This document shows, piece after piece, positions 2,055 to 21,586 of a stretch of DNA of 64,000 nucleotides (positions are counted from its first letter, which is position 1; every line of letters starts with the position of its first letter). Under the pieces are notes generated by a model, which was given only the letters and a program-made list of their open reading frames with translations, did no database searches and was not told the origin of the DNA. The position numbers and the translations under genes were made by a program. Source of the stretch: Ectothiorhodospira haloalkaliphila ATCC 51935 (lineage in GTDB: Bacteria > Pseudomonadota > Gammaproteobacteria > Ectothiorhodospirales > Ectothiorhodospiraceae); assembly GCF_000633935.1 (NCBI RefSeq), contig NZ_KK214998.1, forward strand, positions 534,046 to 598,045, written 5' to 3'.

Positions 2055-3506
2055 ATGAGCACCCACGTGGCCGGGGCCGTCCCGGAAAAGAAAACCCTGG
2101 CGGAGTGGACCGTCGCGCTGCGTGAGCGTGACATGCCGGTCTTTTCCAATACCGTGCAGGCCATCAACACCATCATCGAGGATGAGAAGAAGGGGGCCAT
2201 GGAAATGGCCACCGTCATCTTGCAGGACCCCAACCTCACTGCGCGAATCCTCAAGCTGAGCAATAGCAGCTATTTCAACCCCGGCCGCCGCAAGATCATC
2301 ACCGTCACCCGCGCCATCGTCATCATCGGCATTGATGTGATCCGCGAGATGGTGCTGGCCTGTGCCTTCTTCGAGGCCATCCTGTCCGCCAGCAACAAGA
2401 ATCGTGCCCACGAGGAGATCGCCCGCGCCATCCACTCCGCGGTGCAGGCCAAATACCTGGCCATCGCAACCCAGGATCCGTTTCCTGAAGAGGTGTTCAT
2501 TGCCGCCCTGCTGCAGAACATCGGTCACATTGCCTTCTGGTGTTTCTCGGGCGAGGAGGGCGACCGACTGCGGGATCTGCTGGATGAGGGCACCATGACC
2601 CAGCAGGCCGCAGAGCGTGAAGTGCTGGGCTTCAAGCTGGCCGATCTGGATGTGGCCCTGTGCAAGAGCTGGAACCTCAAGGGGCTGATCGAGGAGACCG
2701 TGAGCAAGCATGGCCGGGTTCGCGAGCCGCGGGTCAAGCTCGTGCATCTGGGCTGCGAGGTGGTGAACGTGCTCAAGCAGGGTGAGGAATCTCATCAGTA
2801 TCCGGCCTGCCTGGAGCAGATCGCCTCGCTCACTGGTCAGAACCAGCGAGAGATCGAGAGCCACCTGCGACAAAACACTGAATCCGCCGCCGGTATTGCC
2901 AGGCAATTCGGCGCCACGGAGGCGGCCGAGCTGATCCAGCGCAAGGCCCGTGAACTGATCGACCATGATGCTTCGGCCTCGCAGATGGATCGCAAGGAGT
3001 TGCAGGTGCAGATTCTGCGGGATATATCGAGCATCCTTTCCAGCAGCCGGATCGATATCAATCTGCTGCTGGAAACCATCATGGAAGGCATTCAGCGCGG
3101 CCTGGGAATGGACCGGGCCCTGTTCGCTGCGCTGTCCTCCGATCGTGCGGTGCTGCACGAGAAGGTTGCCCTGGGGTGGCGTAGACAGAGCCATACATAC
3201 AAGTTCACGCTGCCGCTGGTGTCCTCACCTCCCAACCTGTTTCACAAGGCAGTCTTCAGCCCCGAGGCGCACTGGCTCACACCGGAGGGTCAGCCCGGCC
3301 TGTACTCGCCCGCCGACGTGGATCGTATCGGCTGCCACCCCTGCTTCGTCATGTCCCTGAATTCGGGTGATAAACCTGTGGGCATGATTTACGCTGACCG
3401 GGCCTACAGCCAGGAGCCGTTGTCCCAGGAGGCGTTCAGGACCTTCGAGCACTTTGTTCAGCAGGGGAATATCGGTCTGACGCTCTATCGGCTGCAAGGG
3501 TCCTGA
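2055..3506 (+). CDS. HDOD domain signalling protein with C-terminal GAF-like region
   Basis: A 483-residue cytoplasmic protein. Residues about 20-215 match the HDOD fold, a catalytically degenerate relative of HD phosphohydrolases: the segments MPVFSNTVQAINTIIEDE, ILKLSNSSYFNPGRRKI and AALLQNIGHIAFW are characteristic, with NIGH in place of the metal-binding HD pair. The C-terminal part, from about residue 315, looks like a GAF domain (RDISSILSSSRIDINLLLETI, then a ligand-pocket-like region). Such proteins act as non-enzymatic regulators in stress, motility or c-di-GMP pathways, but the partner is unknown here. It stands alone after hcp, separated by 149 bp without a clear terminator. Confidence 0.85.
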   Translation: MSTHVAGAVPEKKTLAEWTVALRERDMPVFSNTVQAINTIIEDEKKGAMEMATVILQDPNLTARILKLSNSSYFNPGRRKIITVTRAIVIIGIDVIREMVLACAFFEAILSASNKNRAHEEIARAIHSAVQAKYLAIATQDPFPEEVFIAALLQNIGHIAFWCFSGEEGDRLRDLLDEGTMTQQAAEREVLGFKLADLDVALCKSWNLKGLIEETVSKHGRVREPRVKLVHLGCEVVNVLKQGEESHQYPACLEQIASLTGQNQREIESHLRQNTESAAGIARQFGATEAAELIQRKARELIDHDASASQMDRKELQVQILRDISSILSSSRIDINLLLETIMEGIQRGLGMDRALFAALSSDRAVLHEKVALGWRRQSHTYKFTLPLVSSPPNLFHKAVFSPEAHWLTPEGQPGLYSPADVDRIGCHPCFVMSLNSGDKPVGMIYADRAYSQEPLSQEAFRTFEHFVQQGNIGLTLYRLQGS

Positions 3507-6034: not shown

Positions 6035-7310
6035 TACCGGATTGGCGGACCATCTCCATCAGTTGGTGGCGCCTGCATGCACCGGTCTTCAGGTAGATCC
6101 GGTGCATGTAGGTCTTCACCGAAGACTCGGAAATGCCCAGGTTGGCGGCGATCTCCCGATAGGTCTTGTCCTCCATGACCTGCTTCAGCACATGCTGTTC
6201 CTGTTCGGACAGCAGTTGAGCAATCCCCGCGGGGACCGCAGGCATACCGACCGCTGCGGCATCACCCGAATCCAGCGATTCAGGTTCCCGACGCGTGAAC
6301 GGGATATGCAGCAGCAGGGCGGCCAGATTCAAAACGATCAGTGCCGCGAAGGCCAGCACCTCCGCGGCGCCACCCACACTCATGGCCAGCCATTTGCCGA
6401 GGATGATGCCCCCGCAAAGGGCCCCCACGCCGTAACAATAGGCAGTACTCACCGGATGATGCCTGAGGATTCGGGAGAGCAGGAACAGGTCCACCAGCCC
6501 GGCGGCGATCATCATGGCGAACATGGCGCCATGGATGCCCGGGGCGTGCGGGGCGATCTGCCACAGTGCAAACGCCACCAATGCGCCCAGCACAGCCGTC
6601 AGCATGGTGACCGTGGCCTGATAACGACCCAGCAGCCACAAGGCCAGGACGGCCCCCGCTCCATAGAACAGGACCTCGGAGCCCGGGGCCCAGGCCACCG
6701 CCCCGTAAGCGGGCATGAGGCCGCCGTACATGAGCCCGCTCACCACCTGGAACAGCAGTACAAAGGGAAGGTAACGCAGCAGTGGCTCCAGGGTGGTGGC
6801 GTCTTCAGGGCGCGGGTCCCCGGATTCACGGGACCGGGGGAACAGGCCCAGCAGCAACACGGCCAGGAGCATGAGTTTCATGGGGTCGGGCATGGGGGAG
6901 GCGATCAGCGCCAGGGCCAGAAGATTGCCGCCCGCCAGGGTGGCGACCCCGGTGGTGACGGGCTGTTCGGCACCTTTGAGATACTGGCCCACCCTCAGGG
7001 AGACCGGCACGGCGCCCAAACCCAGGGCGATCATCCAGATGGCCACCACCATGTCCGGGATCAGCGCTGATATCAGCGTCAGCAGGCTGGTGAGGATCAC
7101 GCCTGCCTGGCACAGGCGCTCGAGGCGCATGGAGGGCAAGCGGATCGCCGCATAACCCAGGGCCAACAGTCCCAGGGTGTGCGGGATCAGGAACCAGAGC
7201 ATCAACTCCGTCTTGCCCAGAAGCACCCCCGACATGGGGAATGTCGTCAGCCAGGCCACATATGAAGCGGTCGAACCTGCCGCTCGCCAATCGTTTTTCG
7301 ACAGGAACAT
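5988..7310 (-). CDS. Polytopic membrane protein fused to LuxR-type DNA-binding domain
   Basis: A 440-residue protein. Residues about 15-340 are a chain of roughly ten to twelve hydrophobic segments, organised like a major-facilitator-type or sensor membrane domain. After a short linker, residues about 365-430 form a LuxR/GerE helix-turn-helix: LLSEQEQHVLKQVMEDKTY, then REIAANLGISESSVKTYMHR, then a basic IYLKTGACRRHQLME tail. This would be a membrane-anchored one-component transcription factor that senses a ligand or membrane state and binds DNA directly. It is transcribed away from the nine-gene envelope operon that starts 147 bp upstream on the other strand, so it is a good candidate regulator of that operon. 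The DNA-binding motif looks intact. Confidence 0.82.
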   Translation of the reverse strand: MFLSKNDWRAAGSTASYVAWLTTFPMSGVLLGKTELMLWFLIPHTLGLLALGYAAIRLPSMRLERLCQAGVILTSLLTLISALIPDMVVAIWMIALGLGAVPVSLRVGQYLKGAEQPVTTGVATLAGGNLLALALIASPMPDPMKLMLLAVLLLGLFPRSRESGDPRPEDATTLEPLLRYLPFVLLFQVVSGLMYGGLMPAYGAVAWAPGSEVLFYGAGAVLALWLLGRYQATVTMLTAVLGALVAFALWQIAPHAPGIHGAMFAMMIAAGLVDLFLLSRILRHHPVSTAYCYGVGALCGGIILGKWLAMSVGGAAEVLAFAALIVLNLAALLLHIPFTRREPESLDSGDAAAVGMPAVPAGIAQLLSEQEQHVLKQVMEDKTYREIAANLGISESSVKTYMHRIYLKTGACRRHQLMEMVRQSGISDSGHPATEPDRSR

Positions 7311-7456: not shown

Positions 7457-9619
7457 ATGACCATCCCGGAAATTTCCGCTACCCGACGCCCGGTGCTGTC
7501 GCTCTGCCTGCCGCTGCTGATGGCTTTTGGTCTTGGTACGGCCCAGGCCGACCTTTCGGCGCTGGAAGGCACCGTGGGTCATGCCCCGGCGGGAGGGAGC
7601 CCCTCTCTCTGGGACCTGGAGGGCGACACGGGCCACGCCGCTGCGGCATCCGAGCCCCGGGATGACGGCATTCGCTGCGCGGGGGAAGGGCCGTGCGTGG
7701 AGGTGTCCACCGAACTGGCGCTGCGGGTGCTGCCGCGCCCGTTCTCCCATGTGTACGCCGAGCGCCAGGCGGATGAGTCGGCCATCATCCAGGCCAATGT
7801 GGCAGCCTTCCGGCCACTGTATGTGTTTGCCCGGGAGGGGGTGGATCTGGACCGCGGCGGAGATCCTGAAGGCTGGTATCAGGTAGGTCAGGGCCGGGAC
7901 GCCCCGCTGGGCTGGATGCAGGCCCGTGATGTATTCGAGTGGCGCCAGGCGCTGCTGGTGTCCTACACCCATCCGGGAGACCCCATCGAGGGCCGCAGTC
8001 CGGTGCTCATGTTCCAGGACCTGGCCTCGCTGGAGTCCCTGGTGGACGACATGGACATGGCGGGTCGTGCCCGATCCCTGTATACGGACATCCGCGAGGG
8101 TGAGGTACCCGAGTCGGTGGTAAGCATGGAGCCGGAGCGTTTCGTGGACATTACCCGGCAGTTCTACATGCTGCCGATCCTGGACTGGGAGCAGACACGG
8201 ATACGTGGTGACGATGCCCGCCTGTTGCAACTGGCGGCGGCGGTGCCCCGGGCGCGGGGCGCCGACACCCTGACCAATCCCGAGTATGCCGACCAGTCCC
8301 GTGTGGGACGCGGCGAGGCAGGTGCTGGACTCCAGGATCTCAAGGTGGACCTGGTGTTCGTGATCGACACCACGCGCAGCATGCAGCCGTTCATCGACAT
8401 GACCCGGGACGCGGTGGCGCGGATGACGCGTGAGTTCACCGGCGAGACCTCGGCGCGGTTTCGTTTTGGTCTGGTCACCTTCCGTGACAGCATCGAGGTC
8501 ATCCCGGCGCTGGAATACGTGACCCGCAACCACACCCCCGAACTGGTGGACGGCGAAGCGCTGGTGGACCTGCTGGCCCATTCGGCCCGGGCCACCGAGG
8601 TGGGCAGTCTGGACTACGCTGAGGAGGGGTTTGCTGGCGTGGACACGGCGCTGCGCTCTGCCTGGCGGGAGGATGCCCTGCGTTTCATGATCCTGGTGGG
8701 GGACGCCAGTTCCCATCCCAAGGGCCATGCCCAGAACGTGACCGGCAAGGACGAAGTGGACCTGCGCCGGGAACTGGATGATGCCCAGGTACACCTGCTG
8801 GCCATCCATCTTCAGGATCCGCGTGCCGAGGCGGACCATCCCATTGCCCATGCCCAGTTCAGTCACCTGTCCCGGGTGCGGGGCGATGCCGGTCGTTCGG
8901 CCATCGAGGCAGTGGATGCCTTCGAGCAGGCGCAGTATCTGGCCCTGGTGGAACAGGTGACCGATGACATCAACAACCTGCTGCGGCAGGCCATGGGTGG
9001 CCCGGCCGGCCCGGCGGCTTCGACAGGGCAGGTTGCCACGTCCACCGCCGGTACGGGCGATGCCGAGCTGGAATCGGTATCGGCCCTGTGGCAGGCGGCC
9101 CTGGTCGAATACATCGGCCGCGAGGCCACCCCCCCCAAGGACATCGTGGCCTGGTCGCTGGATCGTGACCTGGTGAATCCGGCGGACCGGTCGCTGGATG
9201 TGCGGGTACTGGTCACCCGTGAACAGCTGAGCACCCTGTCCCAGTCCCTGGACCGGGTGGTGCAGGCGCTGATGCGGGCGGAGGTCACCCAGGCGCAGTT
9301 CTTCGAGGCGCTGCAGGGGGTGGCCGGACAGACCATGAAGCAGCCCGACGAGATCGGCCAGGGCGCCCAGCTGGCGGATACGGGTCTGTTGCCGGCGTTC
9401 ATCCAGAGCCTGCCGTATCGCAGCGACATCCTGTCGCTGACCGATGAGATGTTTGCCAGCATGACCACGCAGCAGCGTGCCGAGCTGGAGTGGAGCCTGC
9501 TGGCCAAGCTGGAGCAGTACCGTGCCATCAACGAGCAGGTGGATGTGTGGTTCCAGCTCAACGACACGGATGACGACCGGGACCGGGTGTACCCATTGCA
9601 CCTGGATTACCTGCCCTGA
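7457..9619 (+). CDS. Secreted von Willebrand factor A domain protein
   Basis: A 720-residue exported protein that opens the envelope operon. Residues 1-32 are a signal peptide ending in AQA. Residues about 75-160 look like an SH3-type bacterial domain (PLYVFAREGVD, then GWYQVGQ and LGWMQARDVFEW). The VWA domain covers about 290-510: a MIDAS motif VFVIDTTRSMQPFI, RFGLVTFRD, and ILVGDASSHP. This combination resembles the C-terminal half of PpkA-type proteins, but there is no kinase domain here. The rest is helical with no recognised domain. VWA domains bind partners through a divalent cation, so a scaffolding role in the periplasm is likely. Start chosen for its strong GAGGAGG ribosome-binding site. 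Confidence 0.85.
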   Translation: MTIPEISATRRPVLSLCLPLLMAFGLGTAQADLSALEGTVGHAPAGGSPSLWDLEGDTGHAAAASEPRDDGIRCAGEGPCVEVSTELALRVLPRPFSHVYAERQADESAIIQANVAAFRPLYVFAREGVDLDRGGDPEGWYQVGQGRDAPLGWMQARDVFEWRQALLVSYTHPGDPIEGRSPVLMFQDLASLESLVDDMDMAGRARSLYTDIREGEVPESVVSMEPERFVDITRQFYMLPILDWEQTRIRGDDARLLQLAAAVPRARGADTLTNPEYADQSRVGRGEAGAGLQDLKVDLVFVIDTTRSMQPFIDMTRDAVARMTREFTGETSARFRFGLVTFRDSIEVIPALEYVTRNHTPELVDGEALVDLLAHSARATEVGSLDYAEEGFAGVDTALRSAWREDALRFMILVGDASSHPKGHAQNVTGKDEVDLRRELDDAQVHLLAIHLQDPRAEADHPIAHAQFSHLSRVRGDAGRSAIEAVDAFEQAQYLALVEQVTDDINNLLRQAMGGPAGPAASTGQVATSTAGTGDAELESVSALWQAALVEYIGREATPPKDIVAWSLDRDLVNPADRSLDVRVLVTREQLSTLSQSLDRVVQALMRAEVTQAQFFEALQGVAGQTMKQPDEIGQGAQLADTGLLPAFIQSLPYRSDILSLTDEMFASMTTQQRAELEWSLLAKLEQYRAINEQVDVWFQLNDTDDDRDRVYPLHLDYLP

Positions 9620-9629
9620 AGGAGCGACC

Positions 9630-10382
9630 GTGTCCACGCCCATGATCCGTATCACCGGCCTCGGCAAGGACCGCTCCCAGGGAGGGAGTGTCTTCACTCT
9701 GGAGGTGCCACAGTTCTCGGTGGAGCCGGGTGAACTGGTGGCCGTGGTGGGTGCCAGCGGCTGTGGCAAGAGCACCTTGCTGGACATCCTCGCCCTGGTG
9801 ATGGCCCCCACGCGGGCCGAGGATTTTGGCTTTCGCGCCGGTGAGGCGGATTCGGAGCATGATATCCGCCGCCTCTGGCGCCTGGGGGACGAGGCGAGCC
9901 TGGCGGCCTTGCGTCGGGATTATCTGGGCTATGTGCTGCAGACCGGGGGCCTGCTGCCGTTTCTCAGTGTGCGGGAGAATATCGAACTCTCGGCCAGAAT
10001 CCGTGGTTGTGGTCCCGCCGGGCAGCGGCTGTACGTGCTGGCCGAGCGTCTGGGCCTGGAGGGTTGCCTTGATCGCATGCCCGGCGCCCTCTCCGTGGGG
10101 CAACGTCAGCGGGTGGCCATCGCCCGGGCCCTGGTGCACGCCCCGCGACTGGTCCTGGCCGACGAGCCCACGGCGGCCGTGGACAAGGCCCGTGCTCGGG
10201 CAGTGATGGCCGATCTGGAGGCCCTGGCCCGGGACGAAGGGGTGGCCGTGGTCCTGGTGACACATGATGTGGACCTGGTCAGCGGTCATGCCGATCGTAC
10301 TTACACATTCGATGTGGTGCAGACCTCGGAGAATGTCACCCGCTCCACCTGTTACCCTCTTCAACAAGGGGTGGCCGCGTGA
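9630..10382 (+). CDS. ABC transporter ATP-binding protein (MacB/LolD class)
   Basis: A 250-residue nucleotide-binding subunit. It has Walker A GASGCGKST, a Q-loop (VLQTGGLLPF), a signature reading LSVGQRQ instead of the usual LSGGQ, Walker B LVLADEPT and an H-loop VTHD. The GTG start at 9630 was chosen because AAGGAG lies five bases before it; an ATG at 9642 is the alternative. A longer reading starting inside the upstream gene is unlikely. It overlaps the permease by four bases (GTGA), so the two proteins should be made together as the motor of a MacB/LolCDE/FtsX-like complex. An insert between Walker A and the Q-loop (about residues 60-85) is unusual. Confidence 0.92.
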   Translation: MSTPMIRITGLGKDRSQGGSVFTLEVPQFSVEPGELVAVVGASGCGKSTLLDILALVMAPTRAEDFGFRAGEADSEHDIRRLWRLGDEASLAALRRDYLGYVLQTGGLLPFLSVRENIELSARIRGCGPAGQRLYVLAERLGLEGCLDRMPGALSVGQRQRVAIARALVHAPRLVLADEPTAAVDKARARAVMADLEALARDEGVAVVLVTHDVDLVSGHADRTYTFDVVQTSENVTRSTCYPLQQGVAA

Positions 10383-12217
10383 AGCATCCTGTTCCGGCAC
10401 ATCCCATCAGACTCATACCGGGGCTGGCCGCTTCCCACCTGCGTCACGACTGGATCCTCACCCTGTGCCTGGTGGTGGCCCTGGCGGCGGTGATTGCCCC
10501 GCTGCTGGTGCTGATGGGCCTCAAGAGCGGCACTATCGAGACCCTGCGGGAGCGGCTGGTGGAGGACCCGGTCTACCGGGAGATCCGTCCAGCCCATACC
10601 CGGGAGTTCCCGTCGGAGTGGTTCGAGCAGGTGGCCCGCTGGCCGGGTGTGGATTTCCTCACCCCCACCATCCTGCCCCTGTCCTCCGTGCTGCAGGTGG
10701 TCCACCCTCAGACTGGTCGCAGCGAATTGTTCGACCTGATCCCCACCGGACCCGGCGATCCGCTGTTGCTGGAAAACGGTGCCCGCATCCCCGGCGATGG
10801 CCAGCTGGTGCTGTCCGCAGAGGCGGCCCGGCGCATGGGTGTCTCCGCCGGGGATGCGTTGCAGGTGAGGGTCACCCGCACCCGGGGTACACGCACCGAG
10901 GAGGCCCGCGAGACCTTCCAGGTGCTCTCCGTGCTGGATGCCCGCGCGGGCAGTCTGCCCCGGGTGTACGCGCCGCTGGATCTGGTGGTGGACGTGGAGG
11001 CCTACAAGGAGGGCTATGGCGCACCTGACCGGGGCTGGGCCGGAGACACGCCTGAGCCCTTCCTCAGTTTCGATGGTGCCATCCTGCTGCTGGAAGAGCC
11101 CCTGGACCCCATTGCCCGTACGGGCCTCATCATCAACACGGGTTTTGCGCGCCTCGCCGATGCCGATCGGCAGCAGTCCCAGCAACGTCTGGGTGTGCCG
11201 GTGCCCGAGTCACTGACCGTCTACGATGTCTTCACCCCTGGTAGCGCCGTCACCGTCTCCAACCTCAGGGCCATCGAGCAGAAGCTGCGCGGACGCGAGG
11301 CCGTGGTGCTCCCCTATGTGGACGCGCTTCCACTCGTGGACGACCAGGGTCGAAAAATGGTGCTGGCCGGCCTGTCCTTGTCGCCTCGCCAGGCCCGATT
11401 ACTCCAGGCCCCCGTGCCGCCATGGGGCGGTTTTACCGGCCGTGCTGCACCGGCAGGCGAACTCACCTCCGTGCTGGTGCCCAAGGATCATTCCAGTGAC
11501 TCCGTACAGGTGGTCAGTGACGGGGCGAACACCCTGACACTGCATCTGGATGTCGTCGGGGCCGGCGACTGGCAGCATCCGGTGGTGCCGGTGGAGTTGC
11601 TGGGCGTGCTGCGCACTGGCACGCAGCGGGCCCTGACCTATCGCGCTGATACGGGAAGCTTCGAGATGGCGCGGGGAGGCTACCGGGGTTTTCGCCTCTA
11701 TGCCCAAAGCATCGACGATGTCCCCGCACTGGCAGCGCGCCTGCAGGAGCAGGGGCTTGAATTCGTGGCCCAGGTGGAGGCCATTGAGCGTATTCAGGTG
11801 CTGGACGAGGGGTTGGGGCGGCTGTTCTGGCTGATCGCCCTGCTGGGCATCAGCGGTGGCACGGCGGTCCTGGTGGCCAGTTTGTATGCCGCCGTGGAGC
11901 GTCTGCGTCGGGACCTGGGCGTGTTGCGCCTGCTGGGGCTGGCCCGTTGGCATGTCTTCTTCTTCCCCGTGGCCCAGGGGGTGATGATTGCGGCCCTGGG
12001 GCTGCTGGCGGCACTCGGTGGATACGCGTCTCTGGCCTGGGCCATCAACCGCACCTTTGCCAGCGAGCTGGCACCGGGCGAGCGGTTCTGCACCCTGCCG
12101 GGTGAGCAGATTCTGATAGCCATTGCCGCCACCCTGGCCCTGGCGGTGCTGGCCTCGCTGGTGGCCGCCTGGCGGGCCACCCGCATCGATCCGGCGGAGG
12201 CCATTCGTGAACATTAA
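10379..12217 (+). CDS. MacB/FtsX-type ABC permease
   Basis: A 612-residue inner-membrane protein with the MacB topology: one N-terminal membrane helix (about residues 23-45), a large periplasmic domain (about 46-480), then three C-terminal helices. The end carries the FtsX-family tail WRATRIDPAEAIREH. Proteins of this architecture usually do not move substrates through the membrane but transmit ATP-driven movement to periplasmic partners (lipoprotein release, efflux coupling, activation of hydrolases). There is no membrane-fusion protein (MacA) or outer-membrane channel gene beside it; instead the neighbours are a VWA protein, FGE-fold proteins, lipoproteins and a protease, which suggests a dedicated mechanotransmission role. 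It overlaps the next gene by 11 bp. Confidence 0.9.
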   Translation: MKHPVPAHPIRLIPGLAASHLRHDWILTLCLVVALAAVIAPLLVLMGLKSGTIETLRERLVEDPVYREIRPAHTREFPSEWFEQVARWPGVDFLTPTILPLSSVLQVVHPQTGRSELFDLIPTGPGDPLLLENGARIPGDGQLVLSAEAARRMGVSAGDALQVRVTRTRGTRTEEARETFQVLSVLDARAGSLPRVYAPLDLVVDVEAYKEGYGAPDRGWAGDTPEPFLSFDGAILLLEEPLDPIARTGLIINTGFARLADADRQQSQQRLGVPVPESLTVYDVFTPGSAVTVSNLRAIEQKLRGREAVVLPYVDALPLVDDQGRKMVLAGLSLSPRQARLLQAPVPPWGGFTGRAAPAGELTSVLVPKDHSSDSVQVVSDGANTLTLHLDVVGAGDWQHPVVPVELLGVLRTGTQRALTYRADTGSFEMARGGYRGFRLYAQSIDDVPALAARLQEQGLEFVAQVEAIERIQVLDEGLGRLFWLIALLGISGGTAVLVASLYAAVERLRRDLGVLRLLGLARWHVFFFPVAQGVMIAALGLLAALGGYASLAWAINRTFASELAPGERFCTLPGEQILIAIAATLALAVLASLVAAWRATRIDPAEAIREH

Positions 12218-13886
12218 CCTTCCTGTTGCGCGCGGCCTGGGGGCTTTGCTCTTCTGCCTGGCCTTGTTGATGGCACCGCTGACCGGCCTTGCCGAGGTAC
12301 CTCCCCAGTCGGTCTTCAACCCCCGCCCCGCCGCGGGTGACCTGATCCTGCCCATGCCCGACGGGGCCGAGATGGTCTTTCGTAGCGTATCGGTGCCCGG
12401 GCAGGGTTTCTGGGGCGACCGGGATCGGGTGATCCAGATCGGGGATGCCAGCGGGGGCATCTTCGAGGGGCTGCAACGCACTCAGATCAGTGGCTCCTTC
12501 GCACGGGATGATGGCAGCTGGTATCTGGTGCTGGGCAAGTACGAACTCACCCGGGCCCAGTACATCGCCGTCATGGGCCTGGAAACCCTGCTGGAAACCA
12601 GCGGTGATCCCCAGGTGCGGGAGCTCCCCCAACTCAGGGGGCGGGAGTTGCGCGATGCCCTGATGCAGCCGCTGGCTTATGTGAGTCATCAGGACATCCA
12701 GGCCTTCCTGCGGGCATACAACCACTGGCTGTTCGATCCTGATCACCCTGAGCGCCGTGCCAGGCTGCCCCGGGTGGATGGGGTGCCCGGTTTCATGCGT
12801 CTGCCCACGGAGGAGGAATGGGAGTATGTGGCCCGGGGCGGCATGCCGGCCCTGGAGGCGGGTACCTTCAATGATCGGTTGCCATTCCCCACCCGCCAGG
12901 CGAACGAATACGCATGGCATCTGGACAATGCCCGCCATGAATTGCGCCCGGTGGGTTTGCGAGAGGCCGACGGGCTGGGCTTTCACGACCTGCTGGGCAA
13001 CGTGCAGGAGATGACCTCGGGCCTCTTCCGTCCGGAGATCTGGCAGGGCAAGCCGGGGGGTGTGGCAGTACGGGGCGGCAGTGTCTCCACCCCCGCCTCG
13101 GAGCTGCGCAGCTCCCTCCGTGCCGAATTGGACATCTATGCCTGGAACGCCGACGCAGAACGGGTGGAGGAGCGACGTTCCTTCAACACCGGGGCCAGGC
13201 TGGCCATTGGTGCCAACGTCCTGGTCAGCTCCGCCCAGCAGGCGCGCATTGAGCAGGAGTATGAGGCCTACCGCGAGGATCTGCGCCGCACCATGCCGGT
13301 GGGCCGCACCCTGGACAACCTGGTGGCCCAGGCCTCGGTTCAGTTGGGGACGGTGGATCCCATCCTGGATCGACTCATGGCGCAAAACCCCGACCTGGTG
13401 GAGCCGCTGCGGGCCGTGCAGGCGCAGATGGACCGGGCACGGGAGCGACTGGAACTGGCTCAGCGTGAGAGCGCCCGCAGCCTGACTCAGGATGCCGCCC
13501 GCAACGGCGTGAACCTGAGCGTGTACCTGTCCCGCCTGGCGCGTCTGGACGACACCCTGGGGCGGGCCCGCCGGCTGGCGGAAATCTCCACCCGCTATCA
13601 GGACCAGGTGGATGCCGTGGAGCGCTCCATTCACGACCTGGAAATCGCCGCCGGCGAACAGTTGCGGGGCTACCAGGACAAGGTGGCCGAGCTTGGGGAC
13701 TATGAGCCCCAGTACATCGAACACGCCTTCCAGGTGCTGGATGCCACGGAGTTGCCGCCCCGTGAACGTCTGGTGATGGAAGTGCTGCGCGAGCACGTGG
13801 ACGTGTTCAGCGAACAGCGTCGCTCGGACCCGCAGGTCTGGATGCAGGATTTCCGCGAGCGCTTTGAAGGCTTTGAAGACAATTGA
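12207..13886 (+). CDS. Exported FGE-sulfatase-fold protein with C-terminal coiled coil
   Basis: A 559-residue protein. A signal peptide (to about residue 30, LTGLAE) is followed by a formylglycine-generating-enzyme (SUMF1) fold: KYELTRAQYIAVMG, RLPTEEEWEYVARGGMPALE, FHDLLGNVQEM and AVRGGSV. The catalytic cysteine pair of true FGE enzymes is absent; the only cysteine seen is in the signal peptide, so this copy should be non-catalytic, perhaps a binding module. Residues about 350-560 are charged and helical, probably a long coiled coil. The GTG start at 12207 was chosen because GGAGG precedes it and because a signal peptide follows directly; an upstream in-frame start would place an arginine- and tryptophan-rich run in front of it. 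Confidence 0.85.
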   Translation: MNINLPVARGLGALLFCLALLMAPLTGLAEVPPQSVFNPRPAAGDLILPMPDGAEMVFRSVSVPGQGFWGDRDRVIQIGDASGGIFEGLQRTQISGSFARDDGSWYLVLGKYELTRAQYIAVMGLETLLETSGDPQVRELPQLRGRELRDALMQPLAYVSHQDIQAFLRAYNHWLFDPDHPERRARLPRVDGVPGFMRLPTEEEWEYVARGGMPALEAGTFNDRLPFPTRQANEYAWHLDNARHELRPVGLREADGLGFHDLLGNVQEMTSGLFRPEIWQGKPGGVAVRGGSVSTPASELRSSLRAELDIYAWNADAERVEERRSFNTGARLAIGANVLVSSAQQARIEQEYEAYREDLRRTMPVGRTLDNLVAQASVQLGTVDPILDRLMAQNPDLVEPLRAVQAQMDRARERLELAQRESARSLTQDAARNGVNLSVYLSRLARLDDTLGRARRLAEISTRYQDQVDAVERSIHDLEIAAGEQLRGYQDKVAELGDYEPQYIEHAFQVLDATELPPRERLVMEVLREHVDVFSEQRRSDPQVWMQDFRERFEGFEDN

Positions 13887-13915
13887 TCACGATATCCCTG
13901 CAGGGGGCAAGCACC

Positions 13916-14560
13916 ATGAACATCATCAAAACCACTCTTCCCGTCATCCTCGCCGGTGCCCTCGTCACCGGCTGTGCCCATATGGATGATACGGATCGCA
14001 CCCGTACCGAGGGCACGGCAGCCGGCGCCCTGCTGGGGGGACTTCTGGGGTATGCCGTGGACGGTGAGCGCGGCGCCGTGATCGGCGGCCTGCTCGGTGC
14101 CGGCGCCGGTTATGTGGTGGGCAATGAGGTGGCCAAGCGCAAGAAGGCCTACGCGACCACTGAGGACTTTCTGGACGGTGAAGCCACCCGGGTGGCCGAG
14201 TTCAATACCACCACGGTGGCCTACAACCAGGAGATGAAGACCGAGATCGCCGCCCTGGAGCGGGAATCCCGCGACCTGAGGGCCCGCTACGATGCCGGCT
14301 CCGAGGACAAGAAACGTCTGCAGGCTCGGCGCCAGGATCTGCAGCGCCAACTGGCTCGCAGCGAGAAGCTGGAAAAGGCCCTGGAGGAAGAACTCAAGGT
14401 GCAGGAGGCCATCCTGGCCGAGGAGGGGAAGGACCGGCCCGCCAATGATCCCTACCTGGCACGCCTGGAACGGGAAGTGGCCGAGTTGCAGGGCAATCTT
14501 GAAGAATTGCGCGAGGGTAGCAGCCAGTTGGCCCGCATCGATCAGAGGCTGTCGGTATGA
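13916..14560 (+). CDS. Glycine-zipper lipoprotein with coiled-coil tail
   Basis: A 214-residue lipoprotein. The lipobox is LVTGC (cysteine 20). Residues about 33-75 form a glycine-zipper segment (GTAAGALLGGLLGYAV, then GAVIGGLLGAGAGYVVGNE), of the kind found in outer-membrane-associated lipoproteins that insert or oligomerise in membranes. The remainder is a strongly charged helical region (about residues 100-210) likely to form a coiled coil. The ATG at 13916 was chosen because the lipoprotein signal begins there and a purine-rich GGGGG precedes it. It overlaps the next gene by four bases. Confidence 0.82.
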   Translation: MNIIKTTLPVILAGALVTGCAHMDDTDRTRTEGTAAGALLGGLLGYAVDGERGAVIGGLLGAGAGYVVGNEVAKRKKAYATTEDFLDGEATRVAEFNTTTVAYNQEMKTEIAALERESRDLRARYDAGSEDKKRLQARRQDLQRQLARSEKLEKALEEELKVQEAILAEEGKDRPANDPYLARLEREVAELQGNLEELREGSSQLARIDQRLSV

Positions 14561-15099
14561 GACGCGTGACATTGATGGTGGCCGTGATGGGCTCCCTGGG
14601 CCTGGTGGGCTGCGCCACCTCCACCGACCCCCGTGAGGGTGGCCTGCTGGGGGGTATCCAGGGGATGAGCACCGGCGCCTACGATCAGCGGGTGCAGGAA
14701 CGCGAGGATCGTCTGGAGCAACTACGCCAGACCCAAAGGGAACTGCAGACCGAGCGTGAGGACCTGGAAGCCCGCAAGGCCCGCCAGAGCCGCGAGGTGG
14801 CCCTGGAGCGGGAGCGTCTGGCGGCCCTGGATCGGGATGTGACCGGTCTGAGTCGTCAGGTGGAGGGGCTTTCCGCCCGCCATGGCGAGGATGATGCCCG
14901 GGTGAAGGAATTGCAGACGCGCCTGGATGATCTCCAGGGACGCATGCAGTCCCAGCAATCCGCCCTGGACGCCCTGGAAGGCACGGGAATGGGGGATACG
15001 GAAACGGACCTGCGCCGTCGACAGCTGGAAGAACAGCGCAACGCCCTGCGCGAGGAGTTTGATCTGCTGATGGAGTTGTCGCTGGATCTGGCCAGATGA
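14557..15099 (+). CDS. Coiled-coil lipoprotein
   Basis: A 180-residue lipoprotein with lipobox LVGC (cysteine 19). After a short glycine-rich stretch (GGLLGGIQGMSTGAY) almost the entire protein is a heptad-rich coiled coil (EDRLEQLRQTQRELQTERED and onward to residue 180). No enzymatic domain is visible. The preceding gene also encodes a lipoprotein with a coiled coil; the two overlap by ATGA and may form a hetero-oligomer. The downstream protease gene also overlaps by ATGA, so translation appears coupled along this part of the operon. Confidence 0.78.
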   Translation: MRRVTLMVAVMGSLGLVGCATSTDPREGGLLGGIQGMSTGAYDQRVQEREDRLEQLRQTQRELQTEREDLEARKARQSREVALERERLAALDRDVTGLSRQVEGLSARHGEDDARVKELQTRLDDLQGRMQSQQSALDALEGTGMGDTETDLRRRQLEEQRNALREEFDLLMELSLDLAR

Positions 15100-16223
15100 G
15101 GAGAGTGGCCCTTGCCCTGCTGGTGCTGGGCCTGATCGTGCCAGGGCCGGCCCTGACCGAGGCGGCCGCGCCCCTGGATGAGATCCGCCAGCTGTTGCGC
15201 CAGCACCTGTACGAGGCCCCGCCGGAGTCGGTCCTGGCTGGGCTTCGGGCCGGCCACCTGAATGCGGATCTGGCCAGCGTGGACCCGTATGCCCGGCATT
15301 TCCCCGACAGGGAAGCGGCACGGCTCGATCGTGACGCGCCCACCTGGACGGGCATCGGCGCGGATCTGCAACTGGAGTCGGGCCAGGTGTGGCTGCAGAC
15401 CTACCAGGGTGGCCCGGCAAAACGGGCCGGCCTGCCGGATCGGGCCCGATTGCTGGAGATCGATGGTCAGTCGTTGACGGACTGGCAGGCGGATGCCTTG
15501 ATGAATGCGCTTCGCGGCGAGGCGGGTTCCCGCGTGGAACTGACATGGCAGGAGAGTGCCGCGGGCCCCAAGCGCAGAACGGTGCTCACCCGCGAGCCCT
15601 TCCGACCCCTGGATGTGGAACTGGTGGAGCCCTGGGACCGGGGCGTGGTCCGGGTGCGTGATTTTCTTGCCGGACGCACCCGACCCGCCCTGATGGCCAC
15701 CTGGGACTTCCTGGATCGGGTGAGCCCCGAGGCCTCCGACGCGGATACCCCCCTGGTGATGGACCTGCGCCATGCCGGTGGCGGTGACCTGCATGAGGCC
15801 CTGGACCTGGCGGGGCTGTTTCTGCCGCCGGGGGCTTCCCTGGGCGGCGTCATGGCACGCGGCGGGGAAATCCGCAGCTTCAGCGCCCCCGAAGGGGCCA
15901 AGCTCTCCATGCCCCTGGTATTGCTGGTGGGCCCGCAGACGGCCAGTGCGGCGGAGGTGTTCGCCGGCATCCTGCAACACCATGGGCGCGCCCGTCTGGT
16001 GGGTCAGCCCACCTTCGGCAAATGCAGTTCCCAGACCGACCGACGTCTGTCGGATGGCTCCGTGCTGCGGTTCACCAACCGTGAAGTCCTGTTGCCCGAT
16101 GGCCAGAGCTGCAGTGGTCGAGGCCTTCGCCCGGATGTGGAGGTGGGGGATGCCGTGCTGAGCGACCTGCAACGCCTCATGTCGCTGGCCATGGCCCTGG
16201 AGGCGGGGCGGGGAGTGCAGTAA
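15096..16223 (+). CDS. Periplasmic S41 (C-terminal processing) protease
   Basis: A 375-residue exported serine protease. A signal peptide (about residues 1-22) precedes a short helical region, a PDZ-like domain (about 85-165; GIGADLQLESGQVWL, GGPAKRAGLPDRARLLEIDG) and the S41 catalytic domain. The nucleophile is the serine in GPQTASAAEVFAGIL and the general-base lysine is in GQPTFGKCSSQT, both in the expected order, so the enzyme should be active. Family members trim or mature envelope proteins and are often tethered or regulated by lipoproteins, which fits the two lipoprotein genes just upstream. It ends in TAATG shared with the next start. Confidence 0.88.
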   Translation: MRRVALALLVLGLIVPGPALTEAAAPLDEIRQLLRQHLYEAPPESVLAGLRAGHLNADLASVDPYARHFPDREAARLDRDAPTWTGIGADLQLESGQVWLQTYQGGPAKRAGLPDRARLLEIDGQSLTDWQADALMNALRGEAGSRVELTWQESAAGPKRRTVLTREPFRPLDVELVEPWDRGVVRVRDFLAGRTRPALMATWDFLDRVSPEASDADTPLVMDLRHAGGGDLHEALDLAGLFLPPGASLGGVMARGGEIRSFSAPEGAKLSMPLVLLVGPQTASAAEVFAGILQHHGRARLVGQPTFGKCSSQTDRRLSDGSVLRFTNREVLLPDGQSCSGRGLRPDVEVGDAVLSDLQRLMSLAMALEAGRGVQ

Positions 16224-19200
16224 TGACCAGGTTTCCACATGCAGGGTGGCGGTCCAGGCCCGGACGCGGGGCCGGCAGGCATGGATTCATCCTCCGGTGT
16301 GCCATGGCGCTCGTGCTGTTCACCTTGTGCGGCGTGGCCCAGGCCTGGACTCCCGGGCTGAAAACCGCGGCACAGATGGTGGCCCAGGGGACTGCCACAC
16401 CGCATCAGGAGATGCTGGTGTTCTTCTCCAACCGGGAAGTGAATCTGGCCGCCGTGTGGCGCGAACTGCCCATCGATCAGTACAACGCGGTTCAGGAGCA
16501 TTTTCACGCCCTGAACCGCCAGTTTTCCCGTCAGGCGGTGGAGAATGCCGGGTTTCGGGCCGAGTTCGGCGGGCGGGGCTTCAATCCCGGCACCGACACC
16601 GACGTGAATGTGCTGGCCACCGGCGGGCGTCGCATCACCCTGGAGGATATCCAGCGGATCGAGGCCGAATATCAGCGTGTGATCCGTGAGCATTTCGGTC
16701 GCCAGGGGGTCCGGACACCGGTGGAGCGGTTCGACACCGACACGGACTTCATGCCCCACCCCAACCACACGGACCAGTTTGATCAGATCGTCCGGCACAT
16801 CAACCAGCGGGGCGGGACCGCCTACGCCACGCCGGGGGCGGTGCGTACCCAGATGGCCCTGGCCCAGGGGGCACCAGGGGATTTCATCCCCATCAGCATC
16901 AACGACGCCATGGACTTCTCGGCGGAGATGCGCCGCCTGAGTCAGGCCAGCGATCGCAGCGCCAACGCCTGGCTGCGGGAGGCGGAGGCGATGCAGCCTG
17001 TCAATCCCCGGCGGGCCGAACTGTTTCGGGCTCAGGCGCAGCTGGCGGAATCCCAGTCCGCCAAGTACATCAGCCGTCAATTCAGCCTGGACAACCACCT
17101 GCGGCTGCAGCATGACCTGAACCCCGTTCCCCTGGGGGATACCGGCCTGGACCAGGCCCTCTCCAGGCTCCATGACATGGGTCGCGGCGTGGCCACGGCC
17201 AGGGATGCCGCCGCGGTGCGTGCCATGAACCGACACGGCCTGCAGCGTGCCTCGGATCAACTGGTGGACACCTTCGGCACCCTGGCCCGCCTCAACCCCA
17301 CCCAGGGTGGACAGTTCAGTCGGGCCATCGCCCAAGAGATCAGCCGCATGAGTCCCTCCAAGGCGGGTGAGGCCATCGGTCGTCTGGAGCGTAGCGTCGG
17401 CGGCGACTTTGCCCAGAGCGTGGCCCGCGAAACCCGCAGACTCCATGCCACGCGGCGCATTGAAGCGGTGCCCAATGCCGCACCTCCTCCACGGGGGGTG
17501 AGCGCCGTGCGGATCATGATGGCGGGTGTATCCGGCTATTTCATGGGCAGGGAAGGGGTGTACCACGCCCTGGATCAGACCGAGGCCGACGATACGGCAT
17601 TTGATTTCTTCATGCGCGTGTACCAGAACGCCGCCTGGTATGGCACCGGCGTGGGCCATGCCTACGAAGAAGCGGAACGGGCCGAGATCCAGCGCTTCAT
17701 GCGCGAAGTGGAGCGAGGCAATGATCCCAGCCTCACCCGCCATGTGTCCGCGACCCTGCTGCAGATCCCCTATCTCATGGCCAGGGACAGCGTCACCGGC
17801 ATCCTGTACCTGCCCGATGCCATTGTCGAGGCCATCACCGGCACCAAGGAAGCGGAGGCCCGGGAGCAGGCATCGAAGGAGTTCCTGGCCGAAATACGGC
17901 GGCTGGTGCGTCATCGCGAGCAGATCGATGAGGCCTTTGCCCATGCCGAGGCAATGGGTGTCAGGCCGGAGGATTCGGATCGATTCCTCGATTGTCTGTG
18001 CAATCAATGCGGCGGCATGCTGGGGGGATACTTCTGCGTGGGCTCGGGTTGCAGACGCCCCATGGGGTCGGGTCCCTGCGTGTGCAAGGGCCCTCTCAAT
18101 ACCTGGAATACCCCGATCCCGAGTGGTACCGAGGATAGCCTGGGTTGCTTCAATGCCATCACGCGCAGAAACCATCAGGAGGCACAGGCGGTTTTCGACA
18201 GCTGGCAGGCGCGTATTCCCAAGGAAAACTACAAGAGCGTCGAGGCCGACGTGGAAGAGGTCAAATGGCTCCTGGAGCAGGGTGACTTTGAACAGGCAGC
18301 GCGTAGCTATCAACCCATTGCGCCGGTACTTGCTGGGGTGGTGGATGCCATCGCCACGGATGACGGCGTGATGCACACGCCGCTGGATCGGCACCTGGAG
18401 GGGCGTATTGCGGGAGAGCTCATCAATCAGGCCCGTGATCACCAGGCCCGGCAGGAATATCAACAGGCCCTGGACGCCTATCAGGCCGCGTTGTCTGTTT
18501 GGCCTGATGATGAGGTGAAGGCCAGGGCAGCACGGTTGGAGAGATACCTGGCCGTGCAGGACCCCCAGGAGGCCGCCAGCAGGGCCGAAGCGGCTCGCGT
18601 GGCTCCCGGTCAGCCGGGGGACGACAGGGAGGGGATGGCGTTGACACCGCCAAGGGAACAGGCCATGGCGATCGAGCGCGGATCGCTGGATGGCCAGCAG
18701 CGGGAGCAGGCACATGAACTCCGCGTGGAGGGGCATGGGCACCTGACCGTGGAAGTGCAGGCCGATGGCGATCTGCAACTGGCTCTGCAGTTGCGGCATG
18801 CGGAGGGTGCGGATGTGCTGACTCAGGACCGTCACGGACGCCGGGACAGCCGACGGGTGGAGCAGCCTGATCTTGCCCCGGGTCTTTACGAGGTGCGGGT
18901 CCTGCGCCAGAGCGGGGAGGGGGATTACGTGCTCACGCCCCAGTTGCGCAGGGTGTCCATACCCAATGACCGGGAACCCAACGATTCTGCCGAGCAGGCG
19001 CAATCCATTCCCGTGAATCAGGTCTCCACCGGCTTGCTCGGCTATCGCAACCACGAGGGTCGGGACACGGAAGACTGGTACCAGGTGACGTTGCCTGCCC
19101 ATGGGCGACTGACGGTGGACATCGAAGCCGAAGAGGCCCTGCGGCTTGCCGCGCAGCTGAGGGATGAGGCGAGCACGGGAGTGCTGCATCAGGACCACCA

Positions 19201-19690
19201 CGGCCGCAGATCGCAAAGGCAGCTGGAACGGGCCGATCTCGCGCCTGGAACCTACCATGTACGCATCATGCGTCATGAGGGTCATGGGGGATACACACTC
19301 TTGCCTCGACTGGACGCCGTGGGCGAGGCCGGTGAACTGGCCCGCCACGACAGCATGGAGCTGGCCCGTCCCATCGAGGCGGGGCATGAGGTCACCGGTC
19401 TGCTGGGCTACCGGGATGCCACGGGGCGCGATACCGAGGACTGGTTTCGCCTGACCCTCCCCACCTCCGGCCAGCTTTTCGTATACGTCCGGGCCGATGA
19501 AGATTTGCAACTGGCGGCGCAACTGCGTGATGCCGGTGGATCCCGCAACCTTGCCGAGGATCATCATGGCCGGGAATCCCGTCGTCGTCTGGAGCTTGGG
19601 GATCTGGAGCCAGGCACCTATTACCTGCGGGTTTACCGCCAGGCGGGGCAGGGAAGCTATCGACTGACCACGAGACTACACGCCAGGTAA
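16223..19690 (+). CDS. Large secreted protein with Cys cluster and three C-terminal repeats
   Basis: An 1155-residue protein, not recognised as a whole. An N-terminal basic stretch leads to a signal peptide core ending GVAQA (about residue 42). Residues about 120-140 contain GTDTDVNV. A hydrophobic helix lies near residue 430. At about residues 590-625 there is a cluster of eight cysteines (spaced CxCxxC, single Cys, single Cys, CxC), possibly disulphides or a metal site. The last 350 residues consist of three tandem units of about 110 residues, each with a xLxLAxQLRD core, an (D/R)HxGRxxxRxxE segment and LxPGxYxxRxxR; units two and three also share GRDTEDW. These look like pre-peptidase C-terminal (PPC)-type beta domains. 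A TPR-like stretch precedes the repeats (about residue 740). Confidence 0.75.
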   Translation: MTRFPHAGWRSRPGRGAGRHGFILRCAMALVLFTLCGVAQAWTPGLKTAAQMVAQGTATPHQEMLVFFSNREVNLAAVWRELPIDQYNAVQEHFHALNRQFSRQAVENAGFRAEFGGRGFNPGTDTDVNVLATGGRRITLEDIQRIEAEYQRVIREHFGRQGVRTPVERFDTDTDFMPHPNHTDQFDQIVRHINQRGGTAYATPGAVRTQMALAQGAPGDFIPISINDAMDFSAEMRRLSQASDRSANAWLREAEAMQPVNPRRAELFRAQAQLAESQSAKYISRQFSLDNHLRLQHDLNPVPLGDTGLDQALSRLHDMGRGVATARDAAAVRAMNRHGLQRASDQLVDTFGTLARLNPTQGGQFSRAIAQEISRMSPSKAGEAIGRLERSVGGDFAQSVARETRRLHATRRIEAVPNAAPPPRGVSAVRIMMAGVSGYFMGREGVYHALDQTEADDTAFDFFMRVYQNAAWYGTGVGHAYEEAERAEIQRFMREVERGNDPSLTRHVSATLLQIPYLMARDSVTGILYLPDAIVEAITGTKEAEAREQASKEFLAEIRRLVRHREQIDEAFAHAEAMGVRPEDSDRFLDCLCNQCGGMLGGYFCVGSGCRRPMGSGPCVCKGPLNTWNTPIPSGTEDSLGCFNAITRRNHQEAQAVFDSWQARIPKENYKSVEADVEEVKWLLEQGDFEQAARSYQPIAPVLAGVVDAIATDDGVMHTPLDRHLEGRIAGELINQARDHQARQEYQQALDAYQAALSVWPDDEVKARAARLERYLAVQDPQEAASRAEAARVAPGQPGDDREGMALTPPREQAMAIERGSLDGQQREQAHELRVEGHGHLTVEVQADGDLQLALQLRHAEGADVLTQDRHGRRDSRRVEQPDLAPGLYEVRVLRQSGEGDYVLTPQLRRVSIPNDREPNDSAEQAQSIPVNQVSTGLLGYRNHEGRDTEDWYQVTLPAHGRLTVDIEAEEALRLAAQLRDEASTGVLHQDHHGRRSQRQLERADLAPGTYHVRIMRHEGHGGYTLLPRLDAVGEAGELARHDSMELARPIEAGHEVTGLLGYRDATGRDTEDWFRLTLPTSGQLFVYVRADEDLQLAAQLRDAGGSRNLAEDHHGRESRRRLELGDLEPGTYYLRVYRQAGQGSYRLTTRLHAR

Positions 19691-19723
19691 CGGTCGGATG
19701 GCACTGTCCTATAGGAGTGACCC

Positions 19724-21586
19724 ATGTTCATCAATGCCGGATCTCCCTTGAAGGCGTTCCCCAGGGGCATCATCATTCACTTGGCGGTCTGGTTGCTGCT
19801 TTCGGCCTGCATGGTCGCTGCAATGGTCCAGGCAGCCACGGGGAACGATCAGCAACCACTCGCGCCGACGCCGGCACCTGCGGCCGAAGACAGCGCTCTG
19901 CCTGCCGAATTGGTGGAACTGGCGAGCGAAGGTCGGCTGACCGTTCGGGCCCTGCGGGGCTGGGACCAATTGCCGGAGCGCTTCAGCCAGCTCGCGCTGG
20001 ATCTGCGCCCGCATGACATTGATCTGCTGAGCGCCAATCAGGACACGGTGGAGGCGCTGATTGCCCGCGCGGCGGATGCCCCTTATCTCTCCGAGCGGGT
20101 TCAGGAACTCAGGGAACTGGCGCAGCTGCTGGCCCTTTACGCGCAGCCGGCCCTGGAGACTGCGTCCGAGGGTACTGACGAATCCAAAAACGCAACACGG
20201 GTTGGATCCCAGGTCGAGACGCAGATCGGGCAGGGTCTGCCGCCTGATGGGGTGTCGGGGTGGGTCCTGGTGTCGGCCGAGCCCCGTTATTGGCAGAGCT
20301 CGGACAGTCGGCAAAGCACCTTTTCCTTCAACTTCAATACGGACAGTGCCGTCGATCGGGCCCAGGTCCGCCAGTCCTCTCGCGGCTACTCGCGGCTGGT
20401 CAACCTGGCCTTTGACTGGCGCTGGGACGAGCCGCCTCAATATGCCTTCAAGGAGGAGACCTGGGTGGGGCGGATCGAGTTGAGGAACGTCGGGAGCGAT
20501 GTGGAATACCTGAGCGGTTCGGCCCCCGAGATCGATCCAATGTCCGGTGGGTTTGCCGTTGGCGCACAGTATCGTTCCGGTACGCGACCGATCATGGATC
20601 GCGGTTCGGCCGCCACCGGCCGGTTCTCGCCGGACAACCCGGATTCCGTGGGCACCCCGCTGGCCGAGGCGGAAATCCGTTGGCCGAATCGGGGTTGCCC
20701 AGGCGATCAGTTCACTGTCGAGCTGCGGGTCTCGGCCTGGTCGGGTCGCGGCACCATGGTCTGGACCTATGAGTATCATCCCAATGTGCGGCGCTCGCCC
20801 CTGTTCGCCGACGTGGTTGCCGAGGGGGCGCTGCAGAACCCTGAGCCTGCGGTGGTCGATCTGGAAACCATCCGGGATTGCCCCCAGTGCCCGGAGATGG
20901 TGGTCATCCCGGCAGGCAGTTTCGTCATGGGGTCACCGGAGTCCGAGCATGGTCGACATGAGCAGGAAGGGCCGCAGACAACCATCACCATCGCCAGCCG
21001 CTTCGCCATCGCCAGAACGCCGGTCACCCAGGCGCAGTGGTCCGCCTTGCTGGACTCCACGCCCTTCCGTTTTCCGGACTGCCCGGACTGTCCCGCCGAC
21101 AACGTGTCTTACAGCATGGCCCTGGAGTATCTGCGTCGCTTGAGTGAGAAGACCGGTCACACGTACCGATTGCCCAGTTCAGCGGAATGGGAATACGCCT
21201 GTCGTGCCGGCACCGATCTGCGCTTTTGCGGCAGCAATCACATTGACGATGTGGCCTGGTACCTATGCAACAGCGACGGTCGGTCACAGCCTGTGGCCTC
21301 CAAGGCGGCCAATGCCTTCGGCCTGTATGACATGAGCGGCAATGTCATGGAGTGGACCCGGGATTGCTATACGGAAGACTATGAACTGATGCCGACGGAT
21401 GGCAGCCCGCTCACGGAACGCGCCTCCTGCACGCTCAGGGTCTCCCGGGGGGGCGGCTCGTTCAGTGAAGGCGATCAGGTGCGTGCCGCGGCCCGGGGCG
21501 CGGGGGGCATGATGGGCATGGGCGATGATGGATTTCGGCCGGTCCGGGTTCTGCCGGACCCGGACCCGAGCGCGGAGGCGGAATGA
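19724..21586 (+). CDS. Exported protein: LPE-LALDLR module plus FGE-sulfatase fold
   Basis: A 620-residue protein that ends the envelope operon, 33 bp after the preceding gene, with GGAG before its ATG. Signal sequence to about residue 38. Residues about 70-140 repeat the module seen in the 3656-6034 product (LTVRALRGWDQLPERFSQLA and following). Residues about 180-370 are an unrecognised beta-rich region. Residues about 385-610 are an FGE/SUMF1 fold: EMVVIPAGSFVMGSPE, TPVTQAQWSALL, YRLPSSAEWEYACRAG, YDMSGNVMEWTRDCY and VSRGGGSF. The region equivalent to the FGE active-site cysteines reads GGSFSEGDQVRAAARG, so formylglycine formation is unlikely. Several CPxCP-like pairs elsewhere may form disulphides. 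Confidence 0.85.
   Translation: MFINAGSPLKAFPRGIIIHLAVWLLLSACMVAAMVQAATGNDQQPLAPTPAPAAEDSALPAELVELASEGRLTVRALRGWDQLPERFSQLALDLRPHDIDLLSANQDTVEALIARAADAPYLSERVQELRELAQLLALYAQPALETASEGTDESKNATRVGSQVETQIGQGLPPDGVSGWVLVSAEPRYWQSSDSRQSTFSFNFNTDSAVDRAQVRQSSRGYSRLVNLAFDWRWDEPPQYAFKEETWVGRIELRNVGSDVEYLSGSAPEIDPMSGGFAVGAQYRSGTRPIMDRGSAATGRFSPDNPDSVGTPLAEAEIRWPNRGCPGDQFTVELRVSAWSGRGTMVWTYEYHPNVRRSPLFADVVAEGALQNPEPAVVDLETIRDCPQCPEMVVIPAGSFVMGSPESEHGRHEQEGPQTTITIASRFAIARTPVTQAQWSALLDSTPFRFPDCPDCPADNVSYSMALEYLRRLSEKTGHTYRLPSSAEWEYACRAGTDLRFCGSNHIDDVAWYLCNSDGRSQPVASKAANAFGLYDMSGNVMEWTRDCYTEDYELMPTDGSPLTERASCTLRVSRGGGSFSEGDQVRAAARGAGGMMGMGDDGFRPVRVLPDPDPSAEAE

Follow-up and report, generated by a model that had tools for sequence, protein, structure and literature searches.

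The first seven genes of an operon in Ectothiorhodospira haloalkaliphila ATCC 51935 form a conserved unit with a lineage of its own, and the first five can be assigned, from sequence and gene order, as kinase-less relatives of PpkA (ectodomain), TagT, TagS, TagR and TagQ, in that order, firmly for the first four and with less certainty for the lipoprotein matched to TagQ. The operon lies in a window of 64,000 nt (NZ_KK214998.1, positions 534,046-598,045 of the forward strand; the genome is called G000 here), and coordinates without another label are positions in this window. It encodes an exported von Willebrand factor A (VWA) protein, an ATP-binding cassette (ABC) ATPase, a permease, a protein with the fold of formylglycine-generating enzymes (FGE), two lipoproteins (lip1 and lip2) and an S41 protease, followed by two accessory genes. 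We read the unit as an envelope sensor/transducer whose output would be the proteolytic handling of exported client proteins, and give this reading a probability of roughly 0.55. The initial annotation had not recognised the set as a described system; it does have a known relative, TagQRST with the PpkA ectodomain, found in loci linked to the type VI secretion system (T6SS) and in an SrfABC-linked version (PMC3608642). The genes are as follows.

7457..9619, + strand: gene 1, exported VWA protein, 720 aa, no kinase domain
9630..10382, + strand: gene 2, ABC ATPase, TagT-like (Pfam ABC_tran)
10379..12217, + strand: gene 3, FtsX/MacB/LolC-type permease, TagS-like, 612 aa (Pfam FtsX)
11060..11686, + strand: periplasmic insert of the permease, ~200 residues (about residues 228-436)
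12207..13886, + strand: gene 4, FGE1, periplasmic FGE-fold protein, TagR-like (Pfam FGE-sulfatase)
13916..14560, + strand: gene 5, lip1, Gly-zipper lipoprotein with a coiled coil, TagQ-like
14557..15099, + strand: gene 6, lip2, second coiled-coil lipoprotein
15096..16223, + strand: gene 7, S41 C-terminal-processing protease with PDZ (Pfam Peptidase_S41 and PDZ)
16223..19690, + strand: gene 8, exported 1155-aa protein with C-terminal PPC-type repeats and TPR, variable accessory (Pfam PPC/TPR)
19724..21586, + strand: gene 9, FGE2, exported, with an N-terminal TVRAL domain (described below) and a C-terminal FGE/PvdO-like domain, variable accessory (Pfam FGE-sulfatase)

T6SS loci were located via the Fha family and then read, and three of them were compared (L146, L151 and L152). 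L146 has the order tssM, tagF-like, pppA-like, a 1016-aa kinase-VWA protein, ATPase, permease, FGE protein and lipoprotein, where the N-terminal kinase of the 1016-aa protein, tssM, tagF and pppA were assigned from sequence and position, without a family search. The VWA profile of the window family matched residues 411-1016 of the 1016-aa protein over its full length with 620 bits, and the ATPase, permease and FGE profiles scored 259, 417 and 255 bits at the same locus. Across the three loci the scores were 610-622 (VWA), 243-259 (ABC), 395-425 (permease) and 246-255 bits (FGE), and the VWA protein and the extracytoplasmic half of PpkA align over their whole lengths. Lip1 gave only a weak direct hidden Markov model score with TagQ-type lipoproteins (16-17 bits) and a profile-profile probability of 99.8% in hhalign, within the Gly-zipper/coiled-coil part. 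The order ppkA-tagT-tagS-tagR-tagQ is matched in the window, L146 and L151, and in L152 as far as tagR. Because the profile matches go together with this shared order, we take genes 1-5 to be colinear with ppkA(ectodomain)-tagT-tagS-tagR-tagQ. The TagQRST-PpkA system of the Pseudomonas H1-type T6SS has homologues of the VWA ectodomain, the ATPase, the permease and the FGE-fold protein, and a Gly-zipper lipoprotein that may be related to lip1, but it carries a kinase half and a T6SS linkage, whereas the permease insert, the S41 protease and the TVRAL proteins go with the window type. At a further locus, in Thiohalocapsa sp. ML1 (L207), a VWA-ABC-permease-FGE-lipoprotein set is preceded by a separate 549-aa kinase-like open reading frame (ORF), as though PpkA were split in two.

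The proteins of the unit carry the features expected from their family names, on which Pfam and NCBIfam agree, the VWA match of gene 1 falling just below the curated cut-off. In gene 1 the residues of the metal-ion-dependent adhesion site (MIDAS), D304/T306/S308 and D416, are conserved; its AlphaFold model has a clear VWA fold (Z 18 against integrin I domains, in comparison rows that span residues 285-555 only). A search of the VWA family sequence against PDB gave no match, and a family search detected no kinase in gene 1. The N-terminal region of this protein repeats the motif LEGTxGH / LEGDTGH (window 7550-7640), which is kept in related VWA proteins of the lineage. A close relative (L027, G007:C1:2076000-2095900) has a duplicated VWA gene at 13815-16940 of that locus; the second copy, ~90% identical with a differing N-terminal region, lies between the S41 gene and the large PPC gene. 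The ATPase has intact Walker A, LSVGQ signature, Walker B and H-loop motifs. The permease is a four-helix protein with a periplasmic domain between the first and second transmembrane helices (model confidence, pLDDT, 89), and its nearest solved folds are LolE, LolC and MacB (Z 20-23). Permease fold and ATPase type are those of the LolCDE, MacB and FtsEX type VII ABC systems, but the partners differ, sequence identity is low and the periplasmic insert is extra here. FGE1 has no cysteine outside its signal peptide and is therefore not a catalytic FGE; FGE2 shows RVSRGGGSF without the catalytic cysteine motif, so that the active-site cysteine pair of catalytic enzymes is missing from both. Genes of the lip2 type also adjoin FGE genes in many related operons. 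The gene 7 product (PF03572, 112 bits) has the ASAAE serine and TFGK lysine motifs and is predicted to be an active C-terminal-processing protease with a Ser-Lys dyad.

All nine ORFs are open at the coordinates that the initial annotation had given, and its description of tight packing was confirmed. Four-base overlaps join ABC and permease, lip1 and lip2, and lip2 and S41; permease and FGE1 share 11 bases, S41 and gene 8 one base, and the remaining gaps are short (10 bases between VWA and ABC, 29 between FGE1 and lip1, 33 between gene 8 and FGE2). Export signals had been claimed for all products except the ATPase and permease; by eye we saw Sec-like signals at the starts of VWA, FGE1, S41, gene 8 and FGE2, and lipoboxes (LVTGC and GLVGC) in the two lipoproteins. 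Since both lipoboxes carry Ala at +2, lip1 and lip2 are read as outer-membrane lipoproteins. The annotators had seen a possible weakness in promoters that would split the set, and no promoter- or terminator-like site dividing it exceeded the shuffled background.

To place the operon in its family, 80 named loci and many further ones were compared. The window arrangement, VWA-ABC-permease-FGE-lip1-lip2-S41, is complete and ordered in 21 named loci, with one more in rearranged form (L179), and its carriers, gammaproteobacteria and desulfobacteria among them, include Ectothiorhodospira, Allochromatium, Halomonas cerina, Desulfopila, metagenome-assembled genomes (MAGs) of Desulfovibrio and Succinivibrionaceae, MAGs of Opitutales and the Planctomycetes-Verrucomicrobia-Chlamydiae (PVC) group, and others. 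The recurrence of genes 1-7 in the same order at these 21 loci, in several phyla, argues against a chance association, and it bears out the expectation that the genes would be found together elsewhere. Of the nine-gene unit first proposed, then, genes 1-7 stand as a conserved block and genes 8-9 are variable and fall outside it. In a tree of the three shared proteins (100 rows, FastTree; some branches are long) the S41-linked type falls to one side of a branch that has support 100. Permeases of this S41-linked lineage measure about 601-656 aa (a split ORF and an outlier of 815 aa aside) and those of all other classes about 392-437 aa; the ~200-residue periplasmic insert therefore marks the lineage.

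Three other arrangements were seen. In the second, SrfA-SrfB-SrfC precede VWA-ABC-permease, often with FGE and lipoproteins (Pseudomonas, Pantoea, Gilliamella and Roseomonas relatives); the third is the T6SS with kinase-VWA, and the fourth has VWA-ABC-permease with a small Sel1-like membrane protein. The SrfABC-linked operons resemble the window type in VWA-ABC-permease-FGE-lipoproteins and in being T6SS-free, but have SrfA/B/C upstream and a ~400-aa permease, and no gene labelled S41 was detected in the SrfABC-linked loci fetched. SrfABC with TagQRST and PpkA in a neighbourhood lacking T6SS is known from host-associated Deltaproteobacteria (PMC3608642), and the mere absence of T6SS from a copy is therefore no novelty. 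SrfABC was ruled out as a partner in the window, where no ORF matched SrfA, SrfB or SrfC. One SrfABC-VWA-ABC-FGE operon closes with the gene for a second VWA protein, which is membrane-anchored (L092, 3196-4443). The stand-alone VWA-ABC-permease triads of gammaproteobacteria have homologous VWA, ATPase and permease proteins, but they lack FGE, lipoproteins and protease and have a small transmembrane/Sel1-like protein upstream. The nucleoside-triphosphate-driven VWA conflict systems were also rejected, as those read in PMC7159879 pair VWA with MoxR AAA+ proteins or GTPases, not with an ABC transporter.

A second line of evidence comes from a domain of ~90 residues that follows the signal peptide, here called TVRAL after its consensus (...LTVRALRAWGxLP...LALxLRxxGxDLLxA...). 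It is common to FGE2, a 792-aa protein encoded upstream of the operon, NHL proteins of other Ectothiorhodospira and further proteins, and it gave no match above noise against Pfam and PDB. Together with a divergent regulator gene, the copies in the window lie as follows.

3656..6034, + strand: exported 792-aa protein with a TVRAL domain, upstream of the operon
3758..4078, + strand: TVRAL domain of the 792-aa protein
5988..7310, - strand: LuxR-type regulator with a long N-terminal membrane region, divergent
19880..20134, + strand: TVRAL domain of FGE2

Ten of 144 relatives have TVRAL (G000, G002, G003, G005, G007, G009, G013, G023, G031 and G043), and these are the same ten in which the VWA search of the family found the window-type operon (partial in G013); the TVRAL-negative relatives covered by that search had no such operon, relatives added later not having been searched for it. 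The pattern has a p of about 1e-15 if phylogeny is ignored, and it was also seen within one genus (6/6 against 0/4, p 0.005) and a second (3/3 against 0/27, p 0.0002). Copies adjacent to the operon co-occur with it trivially and dispersed ones would not, which makes the latter informative: in 8 of the 10 genomes copies with varied architectures are far from the operon (on other contigs or at least 100 kb off), and the window's genome has two on another contig. The dispersed proteins reach 1472 aa and some are ankyrin-rich; at L269 and L273 an exported TVRAL protein has many ankyrin repeats (11 Ank_2 stretches), which one would not normally expect in a protein predicted to lie in the periplasm or at the surface. 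In a sample of 369 genomes of the class, TVRAL was found in G000 and G179 alone, as predicted from the long-permease operons, which had been seen in these two only; the S41 gene of G179 was confirmed. In exosortase/PEP-CTERM and similar systems, proteins with a terminal tag in common are sorted with the help of a processing enzyme. The likeness lies in dispersed exported proteins that share one domain whose presence tracks a putative processing locus; the tag there is C-terminal and tripartite, whereas the shared part here is a ~90-aa domain behind the signal peptide.

In P. aeruginosa, TagQRST-PpkA senses outer-membrane damage (PMC11881912), and TagS/TagT in T6SS only modulate baseplate assembly (PMC6657622). 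By this homology the window unit should likewise reach across the envelope and react to its condition. The outer-membrane lipoproteins lip1 and lip2 would hold the non-catalytic FGE1 at the outer membrane, and a disturbance of that membrane would alter the contact between them. The ATPase and four-helix permease may serve as a mechanotransmitter, like the type VII ABC systems named above, relaying the change to the periplasmic VWA protein or resetting it, and the MIDAS site of the latter might be where a partner, or a peptide in extended form, binds. In the T6SS version the VWA half would drive dimerisation of its own kinase half. As the window protein has no kinase, the output must differ and the signal would remain in the periplasm, where it could gate the S41 protease. 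Judging from the constancy of the S41 gene and from the TVRAL profile, the protease may trim, release or remove exported clients, among them possibly the TVRAL proteins beside the operon and elsewhere in the genome. The design first suggested for this DNA placed an ABC motor in the inner membrane beside VWA and FGE proteins assembled in the periplasm, together with lipoproteins and a protease, and we judge it to be right. More tentatively, TVRAL may be the client-recognition domain read by this kinase-less TagQRST/VWA machine, its clients (beta-propeller, FGE-fold, ankyrin and unknown types) being bound or processed by VWA-S41 on envelope disturbance. If so, the unit would be a new system, derived from the T6SS sensor, for quality control in the periplasm or for release at the surface.

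Several points weigh against a sensor with a proteolytic output. TVRAL was found in 6 of 11 genomes of the window sub-clade (1a), 0 of 14 of the deeper S41 type and 0 of 25 of other types (50 named genomes); because it was not found in 5 of 11 clade-1a genomes or on the deeper S41-linked branch, some of these being MAGs, it is not a universal client mark. G013 has TVRAL proteins and, at the place read, only a partial operon (lip2-VWA-ABC), and the 1155-aa protein has no TVRAL. The likeness of lip1 to TagQ sits in Gly-zipper and coiled-coil sequence, a kind of segment that can raise profile scores unduly. The sensing role is extrapolated from Pseudomonas, the purely modulatory part of TagS/TagT in T6SS baseplate assembly speaks against it, and any link of the S41 or VWA protein to a substrate is our proposal.

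The main rival is a transport or assembly machine, in which a LolCDE/MacB-like ABC pair would move exported proteins from the face of the inner membrane to the outer-membrane lipoproteins at the expense of ATP, with FGE and VWA as chaperones and S41 for maturation. The LolC/LolE and MacB folds nearest to the permease, its extra insert, the variable large exported proteins that follow the operon and the client-like profile of TVRAL would all fit such a machine. We nevertheless consider it unlikely, since the operon showed no recognisable MacA-like adaptor, TolC or LolA homologue and the best characterised homologues, TagQRST, work in signalling. Still less probable is that TVRAL proteins and the operon merely travel on the same mobile elements with no joint function; the patchy distribution within the family would agree with this, but the distant copies of varied architecture in 8 of 10 genomes, and the lack of any TVRAL copy in the 134 other relatives searched, do not. 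Control of the genome's T6SS in trans, by a split TagQRST module and one of two unlinked Ser/Thr kinases (the only ones in the genome, both outside the operon), is very improbable despite a T6SS without adjacent Tag genes (TssC at G000:C4:1441488), since TssC was not found in the carriers G002, G003, G013, G023 and G031 (at least 98% complete), no Fha exceeded the family cut-off in G000 and the VWA protein starts with a signal peptide and lacks a kinase. For the same lack of TssC in several carriers, and because this TssC, the genome's only one, is far off on its contig without Tag genes, the T6SS was rejected as a direct partner. The T6SS cluster itself (G000:C4:1433000-1449000, L045-L046) holds TssC and its likely neighbours, with no TagQRST/PpkA genes adjacent.

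These comparisons show that the part of the T6SS retaliation sensor that lies in the envelope is a module in its own right, combined with neighbours of at least three kinds (kinase and T6SS, SrfABC, S41 protease), and the fused kinase is absent from most copies sampled. Because the module is autonomous and mostly kinase-free, TagQ/TagR sensing, the action of the ABC pair and binding by the PpkA ectodomain become testable outside T6SS. TVRAL, which is absent from Pfam, singles out specific proteins as candidate clients.

Genes 8 and 9 vary among carriers: elsewhere the S41 gene is followed by beta-propeller (NHL), TPR-like or unknown exported proteins. The N-terminal part of the 1155-aa protein was not found elsewhere among 398 genomes of the phylum, where only its PPC-like C-terminal part had matches, and the protein was rejected as a conserved substrate on this account. 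An Allochromatium ORF after S41 does match it, so we take it as one of several genes that can stand in for one another behind S41. Its gene, almost confined to a few genomes, falls outside the conserved block; the suggestion that a large exported protein is handled gains indirect support from the phylogenetic profile of TVRAL. The N-terminal part (window 16223-17660) has no Pfam family, and its GTDTDVNV motif recalls nucleotidyltransferases, by eye only.

Two neighbours belong with the operon, the upstream 792-aa protein and the membrane-bound LuxR-type regulator. A homologue of the former sits within the operon, between lip2 and S41, in some other genomes, and the latter adjoins the VWA gene in Ectothiorhodospira and in a Wenzhouxiangella MAG. 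An HDOD-GAF signalling protein (window 2055-3506) is encoded just upstream of the 792-aa TVRAL protein and in the same place in G007. Elsewhere in the window, a strong positive AT skew at 40000-46000 and 62000-64000 sets these segments apart from the remainder.

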